From a virus, in IMG/VR virus record IMGVR_UViG_3300005265_000009, positions 1 to 46,439 of that record: 46,439 nucleotides of DNA. One strand, written 5' to 3'. Both the position numbers and the translations under genes were made by a program. Below, one piece after another: positions 21,230 to 38,148 of the stretch. Within the stretch, counting starts at the first letter, position 1. Every line of letters begins with the position of its first letter. The notes below the pieces were generated by a model. The model made no database searches. It was not told where the DNA came from and saw only the letters and a program-made list of their open reading frames with translations.

Positions 21230-23752
21230 CTAGTATAACCATCTATATTTTCTTTCTTCCTTACGCCGCTTTCTTGGCGGAAAACTCTTAGCGACAGCGT
21301 ATGCCAAAGCATCTGCTATATCATCATTTTTCCCTTTAGGAAACCTGAGCAATTCATCTTCTAGATAGTCAATATACGCCACACCCTTGCTATGATAAAT
21401 GTTACCACGCATATAATACGGTTGTAAAGATCTGATGCGTTTCTCCTTCGTCTCGGAACTTTCTGGAATTACTTCTTCTATCGGCAATCTAACACCACGA
21501 TTTCTCATCTCGCTCTCAATAAAATGCTGAAGAACCTTCTGAAATGCCACAGTTTCCATAATAATCGAAATCGGTCGCCATTTCTGATAGGTCAAAAATA
21601 GTTCATCGGCTATCCTTTTTTCGCTAAAATGTCCCCGCTTAATCTCAAGAATATAAATATTTTCAAACTGATCTACCCCAATAGTAACAATTGCCGTATA
21701 ATCAGCTCGTTCCTTCAACGAAATAGCTGGATCGACAGCAGTAAATCTAGTCATTTTCCTTCCTTTAATCTCAGTCGGATCGTATTCCTTAAACCAAGCC
21801 CGCTTAAAAACGGCCAACTCATCATCTACTGGCTCGTTTTGGTATTGGCAGTGCCACTCGTAACTTCCTTTCTCATTAAGTAATTTTTCAAGGTCTTTGC
21901 GAGAGTATTTACCTGGCCACAAAATTTTTCCTCCCAGAATTCTATAACCACCCTTTGGATTTCTCTCTATAACACCATCATCAATGGCTCTCTTAACAAA
22001 CACATCAAAATCCCTACCTGCTGGATTATCCTTATCCATCAGCCAGCCGTAAAGATCGTCGTAATGCCAACGAGTATTATGCACAACAAAACCATTAGCA
22101 ATAAACGTATGACTTCCCTCAACCGATAAATCGTATACTTCCTCTTCCCCAAATTCTATGATGCTTTCAATTCTCTCCCATCGCCAATTATATTGATTCA
22201 AACCAAAAGCCTGCCTGGTATTATAAGTTAAACAAAGAGAATAGAATTTAGAAACAATCTTCTTCGGTGAATTGGGTGCTTTAATTTTTCTTTTTCTAAC
22301 CAATATACGACCAGGTCTATAACCACAAGTTAAAGCAATCCAATAAATATCCTCTACTAAGCCTTTATTGGCCAACTCCAAACGGTAACCATCGCCCTTC
22401 ATCTTCGCTCCATCTGCTGCCAAAATGCCGTCAATAAATGCTTTTTTATAACAAGCCCTTATTCTAAAAAGCCATTCTGGCAGCCTCTTCGTCCTGGCTT
22501 TTCCTCTAAATCCTATAGACCACAACCAGCGAGCAGCTGTTCTATCATCAACTCTGTAATATCCCTCTTTTCTTTCCCTTGGTTCTCTGCCAAACCATTT
22601 TCTAATAGCCACTACAACCTTCTCATTTTTTTCGGGATAAGCCGATTTAGCAACGGCAAAACCGACTAATCCCCTTTTTCTCGATTTGATTAACCATCCA
22701 TCACCAAACATATACCCAAGCAAATAAAAGAAATCAGACCTTAAAAATCTACCATCATAATGCCTTTTACTGGTTTCATGATTAGCGTGGGCAATAGTGA
22801 CAACCCTATCATCTACTTCAAGTTCATCTGCTCTTTTCCACTTTGTTTTATTGCCATCAATTACCAAAAATGGATGACGCCCATTAGCCTTAATTAAATG
22901 TCTCTTCGTTTTTATCTCATAAATCTTATCCTTACCCTGAGGTATCATTGCCAAAACACGACGCTTAACCAATCTTTTATTTTCGTAAGAGAAAACATAT
23001 TCACCGGGTTTAACATCAACAATATTTTTCCAGCTGGTATCAGCCATCAGCACCTTCGTATCTTTTGTTAAACACCCAATTACAATCATTTCTCCGCCTG
23101 GTTCCAATAAGTCCAAAATGTCTCTAAAGACTGTTTTTACCTTCTCAATCTGATCCTTAGTCGAAATGTTGTCGCGATTGTGCAAGTCATCAAGAATAAT
23201 CAAGTCGTAGTGTTGAGAGACCAAGTTTCCACCAACACCGTAGGCAGTTACCGTTGCCTCCTTAGTCAAATATGACAGGTCGTCTCCGCCCTTTTTCTTC
23301 AGCGTAATCATGTCGTCTCGCCACTTATCTGCTCCTTCAGCTAGATTACCAAAGTATTGAATGAAGGTTTTGTTAAACTGAAGATGTTTCTTGATTTGAC
23401 CGAGAAATGCTTGAGCCATCGCCGAAGTAGCATTGCCAATTAAGATACGAATATTAGGATTTTTAGCTATTCGCTGGAGGGAATAACCGATTGTAATTAG
23501 CGTACTTTTCAAATGCCCCCTAGGCATTAGAATCAACTTTTTTTTCTTTTTCCCATGCTGAACAAAATCGCACAACTCTTCATGAAAATCAGCTAGAGGA
23601 GCCCGCTTATGGCCTAATTCATCTTTTCCCTCTTCAACCTTCAAAACAACTTTATTAAAAGCAAAAAGATTGTTAAGAGCTACCTGTTTAGCCAGCTCAT
23701 TCACCTTGCGATATTTTTCCAGATAAAGATCAACCAGCTCATCCTTCCTCAT
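21230..23752 (-). CDS. terL: Terminase large subunit (intein-containing)
   Basis: Start at the ATG 23750-23752 (MRKDELVDLY), 840 residues; a TTG at 23815 would overlap the upstream gene by 77 bases. ATPase: LILMPRGHLKST (Walker A), LIILDD (Walker B), and TRWHYDDLYGW after the intein (coupling motif). Nuclease: FTAVDPAISLKERADYTAI and NDDIADALAYA supply the RNase H-like acidic residues. A 333-residue intein interrupts it at Gly/Cys between VIG and TRWH. After splicing TerL would be about 507 residues, normal for the family. It drives genome packaging with TerS and portal. Confidence 0.92.
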   Translation of the reverse strand: MRKDELVDLYLEKYRKVNELAKQVALNNLFAFNKVVLKVEEGKDELGHKRAPLADFHEELCDFVQHGKKKKKLILMPRGHLKSTLITIGYSLQRIAKNPNIRILIGNATSAMAQAFLGQIKKHLQFNKTFIQYFGNLAEGADKWRDDMITLKKKGGDDLSYLTKEATVTAYGVGGNLVSQHYDLIILDDLHNRDNISTKDQIEKVKTVFRDILDLLEPGGEMIVIGCLTKDTKVLMADTSWKNIVDVKPGEYVFSYENKRLVKRRVLAMIPQGKDKIYEIKTKRHLIKANGRHPFLVIDGNKTKWKRADELEVDDRVVTIAHANHETSKRHYDGRFLRSDFFYLLGYMFGDGWLIKSRKRGLVGFAVAKSAYPEKNEKVVVAIRKWFGREPRERKEGYYRVDDRTAARWLWSIGFRGKARTKRLPEWLFRIRACYKKAFIDGILAADGAKMKGDGYRLELANKGLVEDIYWIALTCGYRPGRILVRKRKIKAPNSPKKIVSKFYSLCLTYNTRQAFGLNQYNWRWERIESIIEFGEEEVYDLSVEGSHTFIANGFVVHNTRWHYDDLYGWLMDKDNPAGRDFDVFVKRAIDDGVIERNPKGGYRILGGKILWPGKYSRKDLEKLLNEKGSYEWHCQYQNEPVDDELAVFKRAWFKEYDPTEIKGRKMTRFTAVDPAISLKERADYTAIVTIGVDQFENIYILEIKRGHFSEKRIADELFLTYQKWRPISIIMETVAFQKVLQHFIESEMRNRGVRLPIEEVIPESSETKEKRIRSLQPYYMRGNIYHSKGVAYIDYLEDELLRFPKGKNDDIADALAYAVAKSFPPRKRRKEERKYRWLY
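22076..23074 (-). mobile_element. Intein with LAGLIDADG homing endonuclease in terL
   Basis: 333 in-frame codons, starting with Cys (CLTKDTKVLMADTSWKNIVD, block A) and ending VVHN before Thr+1 (block G HN). Block B is ANGRHPFLVI, block F is VYDLSVEGSHTFIANG. Two LAGLIDADG helices are visible: LLGYMFGDGW and FIDGILAADGA. Cys1, the His of block B, C-terminal HN and Thr+1 are all present, so splicing should be active. The insertion point is the conserved TRWH strand of the ATPase, where loss would be lethal. Confidence 0.93.
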
Positions 23753-24353
23753 TTTCCTTATCACTATCACTAACCTGGTAATAAAGTCCGTTTGGAAGAT
23801 AAAATCCTGATCCAAAATGCTTTTTCTCTTTCTGCCACGCCAATTTTCCCTCTAAAAAGTCAACCGTATTCTCGCATTGGGTAACCAACTGTTGGACAGC
23901 ATATAGGTCAAACATTGGAATTGATGTCGGTTTAATTCCCTTACCATACCATCTGCCAGAGGGATGGCGAAAAATCAAAGCAATCTTGTGATCAGAGTAT
24001 CTGACTCGCCACTTATATCCTTTCGGCCAGTCAACAAACATTGCTCGGCGATATAACTCTTTAGCCAGCTGAAAAACATAACCCTCCTTCTTTCCCCTTC
24101 TCGATTGCTTTAATTTGTCCTTAGCAATTTCTTCAGCCTCTTTTTCCTGCTTCTCGGCCTGGGATTGAAATTCAATTGTCCACTTTGCCCCCTTTTCCTC
24201 ATTCTCCTGCCCCACTAAATTCAAGTATTCCTCAGCCATCGCTTTTTTCTTCTGCCTCAGCTTTTCCTCTTCCAACCTCGTCCTCGACCGACGCTTTTTC
24301 TTTTCCTCCTCCTTAACCGATTCAGCAACAGCTTTATGAAATTCATCAGCCAT
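23739..24353 (-). CDS. Hypothetical protein upstream of terL
   Basis: A 204-residue protein with a long charged helical N-terminal half (KKRRSRTRLEEEKLRQKKKAMAEEYLNLV) and a C-terminal domain (GYKWRVRYSDHKIALIFRHPSGRWYGKGIKPTSIPMFDLYAVQQLVTQCENTVDFLEGKLAW) with aromatic strands. No recognised family. It overlaps terL by about 14 bases and the zinc-ribbon gene by 8, between TerS and TerL. A packaging accessory role is plausible but unproven. Confidence 0.5.
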   Translation of the reverse strand: MADEFHKAVAESVKEEEKKKRRSRTRLEEEKLRQKKKAMAEEYLNLVGQENEEKGAKWTIEFQSQAEKQEKEAEEIAKDKLKQSRRGKKEGYVFQLAKELYRRAMFVDWPKGYKWRVRYSDHKIALIFRHPSGRWYGKGIKPTSIPMFDLYAVQQLVTQCENTVDFLEGKLAWQKEKKHFGSGFYLPNGLYYQVSDSDKENEEG

Positions 24354-36887: not shown

Positions 36888-37082
36888 TTATCCCTTTATT
36901 CTGCTAACAAGGTCAGCTCCGCCTTCAACAAAAATGTATGAGACTAGAGCCGTAACAATCTTGTTGATATCCGCTTCAGTCAATCCTAATTCAAAAAACC
37001 TGTTCAAAGCAACCACCAGACCAGCAAGGATTGCTGCCCAGAGCTTTCTGCTCTTTAGCTTGTCAGGAATTCTCATTGCCAC
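36888..37082 (-). CDS. Holin-like protein (64 aa)
   Basis: KLKSRKLWAAILAGLVVALNRFFELGLTEADINKIVTALVSYIFVEGGADLVSRIKG: a helix (WAAILAGLVVALNRFF), a Pro/Asp turn, a second helix (INKIVTALVSYIFVEGGA) and basic ends. This resembles small phage holins with the SRKLxxAIxAxxxxxLNxxxxLGL pattern. A good GGGAGGTGG precedes the ATG. With the XhlA-like gene and amidase it forms the lysis cassette. Could be an antiholin instead. Confidence 0.7.
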   Translation of the reverse strand: MAMRIPDKLKSRKLWAAILAGLVVALNRFFELGLTEADINKIVTALVSYIFVEGGADLVSRIKG

Positions 37083-37092
37083 CTCCCTTCTA

Positions 37093-37281
37093 TTAAAACC
37101 CTTAATGCTGGGGAGGAAGGAAAGCTCTCACCTAGGATGACCTTCCTCAAGTCGGGGGGACAGTAGCTTTTGACTCTGTCAAACTTACCCGACTACCTCC
37201 GCCCCTTCCCTTAGAAGGATTGGAGTGCCTTACCGCCCTGCCCCAAGCGGTTATTCAGCCACCCAGCATAAAAGATTTTAA
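37093..37281 (-). ncRNA. 189-nt structured RNA inside the lysis cassette (RNA-C)
   Basis: Bases 37262-37281 pair with 37093-37112 over 20 positions with a single U-U mismatch and two G-U. Inside are GAGGAAGG/CCTTCCTC (37113-37120 with 37141-37148), GTCGGG/CCCGAC (37151-37156 with 37088-type arm at 37188-37193), TTTGAC/GTCAAA (37169-37174 with 37178-37183), CCTTC/GAAGG and ACCGC/GCGGT (37232-37236 with 37247-37251). The closing-helix G-U pairs form only on the minus strand. It ends 10 bases before the holin ATG, with the SD free outside. Confidence 0.75.
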
Positions 37282-37286
37282 TGTGC

Positions 37287-37553
37287 TTATCTAGCGTAAA
37301 CGCTGATAACTTTCTCTAATAAGTTATAAGCAATTGACGCTATTGCTCCAGCCGCTGTTGCCCAGCCAAGAACTCTGTTTTTCCAATCCCAAAGCTGGCT
37401 GACTCTATCCTTCATTTCTTCGTAGTCTTCATCGAGGTCAACTTTTTTTAAAAGAGATTCTTTTATTTCCTTGATTTCCCGACAGATTTGCTGTTGTCTT
37501 TCGTCAATTCTAATTAGCAGTTCCCGGCTGGTGAAGCTACTTCCTTTTGCCAT
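37287..37553 (-). CDS. XhlA-like coiled-coil membrane protein
   Basis: 88 residues from the ATG at 37551-37553, which has AGGAGG before it. RIDERQQQICREIKEIKESLLKKVDLDEDYEEMKDRVSQLWDWKNRVLGWATAAGAIASIAYNLL: an N-terminal coiled coil, then one membrane helix, the layout of XhlA/haemolysin-type lysis partners. Works with the holin to time lysis. The stop is just before RNA-C. Confidence 0.7.
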   Translation of the reverse strand: MAKGSSFTSRELLIRIDERQQQICREIKEIKESLLKKVDLDEDYEEMKDRVSQLWDWKNRVLGWATAAGAIASIAYNLLEKVISVYAR

Positions 37554-38148
37554 AACCAATCCTCCTAGCTAATGCAAATAAGTCTCTTTTATTATAACCC
37601 AATGTCATAAAATGTGCTCTACGATGACAGCTTTTGCAAAGAGCAATGATGTTCTCGAGTCGGTTATCCCTAGGATTTCCATTTATGTGATGTATCTCTA
37701 GAGAGTCTGGCGGGATAGGCCGCTTACCGCAGATAGAGCATTTGTTGTCCGTGGCGACAAGAACGGTCTCCCTCATTTGTTTAGACACTCTTAATGGTTT
37801 GCCGCCGTTATTTTTCCGCATATCTTTCAGAAAACATTTATAGGAGCAAAAATGCCTCTTGCTGTTTTCTAGTTGACGTGCCGTTCTGGTTATTTTCTTG
37901 CCGCAGTATTCACAGTAAACCACAATAGATGTTGTCCTATTCTTAGCAACACACTTTTGTGAGCAAAACTTTTGTCTTGAACTCTTTGGCAAGAACATTT
38001 TTCCACACACAGGGCACTGTTTTGCCTTTCGCTGGATTCGCTCTTTCTCCACCTCCTTCTTACAATATGAGCATAGCTTTGGTTGCCTATTCTTAGAAAT
38101 AATCTCTCTGCCGCATCGTTTACAGTTTATTCTATAGCTGACCGTCAT
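37537..38148 (-). CDS. HNH endonuclease with zinc-ribbon array
   Basis: A 203-residue protein. Three or four CxxC-type ribbons in the first 110 residues (NCKRCGRE, KLCSYCKKE, KQCPVCGKMF, KFCSQKC, VVYCEYCGKK, HFCSYKC), then NKCSICGKRPIPPDSLEIHHINGNPRDNRLENIIALCKSCHRRAHF, a complete HNH motif with zinc Cys pairs. Free-standing HNH proteins in phages are usually homing endonucleases. ATGA overlap with the amidase. It lies inside the lysis cassette. Confidence 0.85.
   Translation of the reverse strand: MTVSYRINCKRCGREIISKNRQPKLCSYCKKEVEKERIQRKAKQCPVCGKMFLPKSSRQKFCSQKCVAKNRTTSIVVYCEYCGKKITRTARQLENSKRHFCSYKCFLKDMRKNNGGKPLRVSKQMRETVLVATDNKCSICGKRPIPPDSLEIHHINGNPRDNRLENIIALCKSCHRRAHFMTLGYNKRDLFALARRIGYGKRK

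Follow-up and report, generated by a model that had tools for sequence, protein, structure and literature searches.

The gap between the XhlA-like and holin genes of this phage contains a genuine conserved folded RNA, as confirmed by comparison with relatives, and this RNA is, judging from its core sequence and predicted helix order, a divergent relative of the manA class (RF01745), lying outside the range described for the class and not one of its curated members. It has a putative tRNA-like core and would be transcribed within the lysis/late operon, where it is most likely a free-standing RNA gene riding there, a reading that we hold with slightly better than even confidence. The manA class was first described from marine metagenomes and cyanophages; its discoverers annotated it as cis-regulatory and as a candidate riboswitch (PMC2864571), and since 2010 it has counted as a structured RNA of high confidence to which no function is assigned. 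Our literature search on manA function, which was not exhaustive, returned nothing except Weinberg 2010, the structure update of Rfam 14 (PMC7779021) and a paper on a cyanophage genome (PMC9964418). With the copy analyzed here and its relatives, the class now reaches phages other than cyanophages, and the relatives yield a well-covarying minimal tRNA-like core.

The window, i.e., the whole stretch of 46,439 nt of the IMG/VR record IMGVR_UViG_3300005265_000009, carries the RNA in its − strand lysis cassette. The element (37092–37282, −) consists of the tRNA-like core and an extended closing helix, and it spans the gap, beginning 4 nt past the stop of the XhlA-like gene (37287–37559, −), whose name comes from the first-pass annotation and which has no notable family match, and ending 2 nt before the holin Shine–Dalgarno sequence (AAGGGAGG, about 37082–37089, −; read directly and outside the RNA). 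The holin gene (36888–37082, −) matches the holin family phrog_9987 (E 3e-8), with a probable start ATG at 37074–37076. Upstream in the cassette lie an amidase-like gene and an HNH endonuclease gene (37537–38148, −; phrog_1271, E 3.9e-29), the latter adjoining the RNA-bearing gap.

The first-pass annotation had read a multi-helix RNA in this gap, and the predicted fold bears it out: the 189 nt of the − strand fold at −79.8 kcal/mol versus a shuffle mean of −61.9 (z −4.30), with none of 200 shuffles as good. The + strand of the gap also beats its shuffles (z −4.07); the strand is therefore decided by homology, since energy is good on both, and the covariance models RF01745 and R1 (described below) match the − strand only, which agrees with the earlier assignment of the fold to the lysis-gene transcript. 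Folded with a little flank, the closing helix is as had been described, 20 positions with one mismatch: 12 + 8 pairs around a single U-U, with both G-U pairs present on the − strand. Its outer extension pairs 37271–37282 with 37092–37103 (both −) and occupies the place of the 5′ hairpin of the Rfam manA model. Its inner part is the acceptor-like helix, with the 5′ strand AUGCUGGG (37262–37269, −; pair probabilities 0.63–1.0) predicted to pair with the 3′ strand CCCAGCAU (37105–37112, −).

The five inner helices proposed as a minimum form as well; in the 165-nt core, their ensemble pair probabilities range from about 0.67 for the D-stem up to 1.0. Reading 5′ to 3′ along the − strand, the acceptor-like strand is followed by the dinucleotide UG (37260–37261), a U8-G9-like acceptor/D-arm junction that our search patterns required, and by the D-arm, GCUG-AAUAA ... 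UAAGGC (37227–37259), with a hairpin (37232–37251) inserted in the D-loop. P3, at the anticodon-arm position, comprises CUCC...GGAG and an inner 7-bp hairpin (37197–37225; 0.98–1.0); its counterparts in relatives are helices 4–6, and its interior is unlike that of the CAAAU-loop subfamily. P4, at the variable-arm position, is formed by AGUCGGG...CCCGACU (37150–37194; 0.99–1.0). The hairpin at the T-arm position (stem GAGGAAGG/CCUUCCUC, 37113–37148; 0.87–0.89) abuts the acceptor 3′ strand without a gap, and its loop is not a canonical T-loop. The holin Shine–Dalgarno is unpaired in the predicted fold, 2 nt past the 3′ arm of the closing helix, and was thus rightly said to be left free. No terminator-like site was found on the gene strand within the XhlA-like/holin gap, and a terminator pair was rejected on that ground as the identity of the element.

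At the gathering cut-off, an Rfam search of the window gives no match, so the first-pass statement that no phage RNA class has this outline is understandable; it is nevertheless wrong. In e-value mode, RF01745 matches 37104–37283 (−) over all 192 model positions at 33.1 bits, in one place and with E 1.5e-8 over the whole window, while it matches 0 of 14 control genomes. The strongest positions of this match are conserved unpaired letters, namely GUGgCUGAAUAA, UAAGG, GGUAG and the CCC..CUUG junction that precedes the final hairpin. The 5′ hairpin of manA (model positions 1–16) is aligned, but the bases concerned pair within the extended closing helix instead, and opening that helix by force costs 11.6 kcal/mol. 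Because its score lies below the curated gathering cut-off of 55.2 bits and the 5′ hairpin is absent, we do not file the element as a curated member.

We also built a covariance model, R1, from five phage contigs (L196, L145, L180, L175 and L166), with the structure set by hand and the window left out. In the 46-kb window, it has a single match, at 37104–37270 (−), with E 1.3e-6, and it recovers the manA RNAs of the named cyanophages S-SSM7, P-TIM40, P-RSM1 and S-SSM4, two of which score 141.7 bits (P-TIM40) and 121.8 bits (S-SSM4) with RF01745. With regard to the window/manA core, RF01745 is independent but R1 is not, since the relatives used to train R1 were gathered with a pattern taken from it. 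By R1, from which the window was excluded, core sequence and helix order are common to the window and accepted manA members: they share the core GUGrCUGAAUAA ... UAArGy ... GGUAG, the arm order, and the P4 and T-position helices. The window RNA differs in having a 20-pair closing helix instead of a stable 5′ hairpin, in lying in a lysis operon rather than in the potential 5′ UTR of metabolic genes, and in belonging to a phage that is neither a cyanophage nor, as far as can be read from its DNA, marine.

Relatives were gathered by core patterns from viral contigs and a few genome contigs. The loose pattern CTGAATAA-N-GGTAAGG gave mostly chance matches, and patterns preceded by GTGR took its place. 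RF01745 matches 32 of the 42 records hit by pattern (16 of 42 above its cut-off), and R1 yields 68 matches at E 0.01 or better among the 80 sources searched. With 34 matches aligned by fitting to R1, 93.9% of cells are paired versus 37–49% in slid controls, and two-sided changes, found in 31 of 34 pairs, total 316 versus at most 69 in slid controls. They occur at 8 of 9 pairs of helix 1 and at 5 of 5 pairs of helix 7, the counterpart of P4. The covariation score is 0.561 versus 0.05–0.10 for structures slid by 1–3 columns. At the D-stem pair 10–25, the 45 non-redundant elements have GC 29 times, AU 11, GU 3 and AC 2. When distant members were aligned jointly with MAFFT (A4), the middle came out misaligned, and this alignment was kept out of the pair counts.

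Two tests are independent of the fitting. The boundaries of the D-loop insert hairpin were set from conserved letters alone and not chosen by pairing; its pairs 2, 3 and 4 are present in 37, 35 and 32 of the 39 non-redundant elements, versus shuffle means of 20, 23 and 23, and none of 2000 shuffles reached as high. A hairpin of at least 5 Watson–Crick pairs abutting the acceptor partner strand with zero gap was found in 23 of 41 elements, versus a mean of 5.0 and a maximum of 12 when acceptors were swapped between elements; the loop of the window element exceeds the length that this test allows. Taken singly, the relatives have unremarkable MFE energies (z −1.9 to −2.3), and for that reason the case rests on covariation rather than energy. 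The covariance check on related phages that the first-pass annotation had suggested thus came out in favor of a structured RNA, the helices covarying in both the two-sided changes and the insert-hairpin test.

The arm order in relatives is an acceptor-like helix, U-G, a D-arm, A26, P3, P4, the T-position hairpin and the acceptor 3′ strand. The D-arm of the core consists of R10-Y25, C11-G24 and U12-R23, then AAUAA, the inserted hairpin and UAA. The smallest member (L132, 134 nt) is without P4 and comes near to a plain cloverleaf. This layout resembles tRNA (RF00005), in particular the class II type with its long variable arm: the acceptor-like helix is continuous with the T-position hairpin, and there are U8, A14- and A21-like conserved bases and a D-stem with G10-C25 and C11-G24. 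Real tRNAs adjoining the elements have comparable D-arms, e.g., the T4 tRNA-Gln UAGCCAAGUUGGUAAGGCA. In manA-class RNAs, on the other hand, a hairpin is inserted into the D-loop, the anticodon arm is not of normal size, the acceptor helix has 5 to 24 pairs (20 in the window), and there is neither a conserved 3′ CCA nor a canonical T-loop. The window element encodes no CCA. ARAGORN called no tRNA in the window, RF00005 likewise did not recognize the element, and a tmRNA identity was rejected since ARAGORN calls nothing there. The link between manA and tRNA is already noted in the literature and is not new here: a model comparison gave 13 bits with a cloverleaf consensus and was judged presumably false yet worth investigating (PMC3692125), and the same paper cites Rfam for manA often adjoining tRNAs.

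The RNAs rnaC and rnaD of phage T4 are likewise stable RNAs in a phage tRNA cluster, and rnaC, as read from its sequence, has a tRNA-like T-arm and acceptor end. Neither R1 nor RF01745 matches them, and we treat them as analogues, not members. The T4 locus itself (L199 1409–1672, rnaC + rnaD) has no Rfam family at the cut-off, the best hit being tRNA-Sec with 17.5 bits at the T-arm end of rnaC; an Rfam family model for rnaC/rnaD seems to be missing.

The relatives stand beside portal-like, prohead, terminase, capsid, single-strand-binding-like, metabolic, tRNA and hypothetical genes, some of these protein names being our own reading of the sequences; no lysis gene was seen beside those examined. 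Four cyanophage copies, 72–95% identical to L195, occupy four unrelated places (pstS|hypothetical; hypothetical|tRNA-Gly|gp43; hypothetical|talC; gp23|hypothetical). Of the 14 loci that have a tRNA or tmRNA, 12 place it no more than 500 nt from the element, and in all of these it is on the same strand; setting aside the near-duplicates L189/L190 and L193/L198, about 10 of 12 distinct loci remain. In L006 (3700–4398), a phage tmRNA gene predicted to encode a long tag lies 314 nt upstream of a same-strand manA-class RNA. The class is thus shown to be indifferent to neighboring genes and associated with same-strand tRNA genes, a context that is evidence against the cis-regulatory label of manA.

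Several copies have no gene to lead. In L094, the RNA stands alone on the + strand, with both neighbors on the opposite strand; a terminator and then a convergent gene follow it. In L167, a short terminator-like hairpin with six U (CCCUUCGGGGUUUUUU) lies directly behind the RNA, and no same-strand ORF was found in the 1.8 kb downstream; neither L131 nor L124 has a same-strand ORF of at least 60 aa for at least 500 nt. Terminator-like sites occur no more than 90 nt behind 5 of 42 elements versus 1.2% of control positions, and U-runs behind 20 of 42 versus 16% of controls.

From the fold, the homology and the indifference to neighbors, we infer a free-standing tRNA-like RNA. In the window, it would be made as part of the phage lysis/late operon transcript and would then be cut from, or survive out of, the polycistronic RNA, with tRNA-processing enzymes, or RNase III acting on the long closing helix, as the putative cutters. 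It would accumulate late in infection and might act in trans on something that recognizes tRNAs, be it as a decoy or at the ribosome or the processing machinery; if holin expression were affected at all, this would follow incidentally from where the RNA lies. Some features speak against this reading. The next start codon lies 20–60 nt behind the RNA in the window and in many relatives, a spacing that would suit a 5′ UTR element but that phage gene packing would equally produce. The discoverers chose a cis-regulatory and riboswitch-candidate label (PMC2864571). A closing helix of 5–24 bp with no conserved CCA does not resemble the usual substrate of tRNA processing, nor is the T-loop canonical, and a terminator behind the RNA can equally be the expression platform of a riboswitch.

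The first alternative is that the RNA is a cis-regulatory leader (a riboswitch, a thermosensor or a protein-binding element) that controls holin translation or stability and so times lysis, which we regard as rather unlikely. It would agree with the position between the XhlA-like and holin genes with the Shine–Dalgarno just outside, with the annotation of the class as cis-regulatory and a riboswitch candidate (PMC2864571), and with the terminators behind some relatives, which could be expression platforms. However, the relatives examined have no lysis gene beside them, near-identical RNAs precede unrelated genes or tRNAs, and some copies have no downstream gene; since near-identical copies precede different genes, the RNA is not tied to the holin. 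A switch would moreover have to work without a visible platform, because the gap has no terminator-like site and the predicted fold leaves the Shine–Dalgarno uncovered. The role in lysis timing suggested in the first-pass annotation is therefore not supported, and for the window, a family with a comparative record replaces that one-off idea; the RNA may still have a cis effect on the window's own holin.

The second alternative, which we consider improbable, is a punctuation of processing, where a tRNA-like block leads host nucleases to cut between the XhlA-like and holin cistrons and the holin mRNA gains its own 5′ end. A tRNA-like fold in intergenic gaps, the copies adjoining tRNAs and the almost exact filling of the window's gap would suit it. 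On the other hand, the conserved unpaired and inner letters (CUGAAUAA, UAARGYA, GGUAG and the inner CAAAU loops of one subfamily) exceed what a cleavage signal needs, and a 20-bp closing helix without a single-stranded acceptor end would be a poor RNase P or RNase Z substrate. Finally, an inverted repeat or small mobile element with ends TTAAAA...TTTTAA that folds by accident would explain the long near-perfect terminal repeat and positions that differ between genomes as if mobile, but it is scarcely credible and, as a full explanation, refuted by covariation, the inner helices covarying across diverse phages; the curated RNA model RF01745 also matches, the record has one copy, and the outer TTAAAA arm lies outside the conserved core.

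Returning to the free-standing RNA gene, we put forward tentatively, at somewhat short of even confidence, a reading for the whole class: manA-class RNAs would be widespread free-standing phage tRNA-like RNAs with a D-loop insert, not cis-regulatory riboswitches, that reach beyond cyanophages (including a Pacearchaeota-binned contig) and move between tRNA clusters and late operons; here, the RNA would be produced together with the lysis genes and might mimic a tRNA to counter the defence or tRNA-handling machinery of the host. The indifference to neighbors and the proximity to tRNAs make the choice between a leader and an independent tRNA-like RNA directly open to test in isolated cyanophages whose hosts are known.

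Searches for relatives of the phage itself and of the element gave the following: blastn of the element against named phages gave no match, the 874-aa protein of the window had no relative in viral contigs and the exonuclease-like protein none in named phages, the portal had one weak match (vir526 of Methanomicrobiales), and the terminase matched only at about 30% identity. Three of these distant phages gave no manA-class RNA, which is uninformative at such distance.

Other arrangements were seen along the way. Tandem manA-class RNAs lie upstream of a portal-like gene in the viral contig L142 (3292–3445 and 3493–3664), one of them with a 24-pair closing helix, and L184, a contig binned as Candidatus Pacearchaeota, has nearly the same sequence as L142. 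The core GTGGCTGAATAA occurs twice in L162 (2021–2319) and in L169 (681–975), as though a single RNA of about 300 nt contained a second, nested D-arm. An HNH-like ORF lies shortly behind the manA-class RNA of locus L193, and the HNH genes beside the RNAs of L193 and the window could bear on how the RNA moves. The terminase large subunit gene of the window (21230–23815, −) carries an intein (Intein_splicing, E 3.8e-20) with a Hint homing-endonuclease-associated domain (E 2.6e-6).
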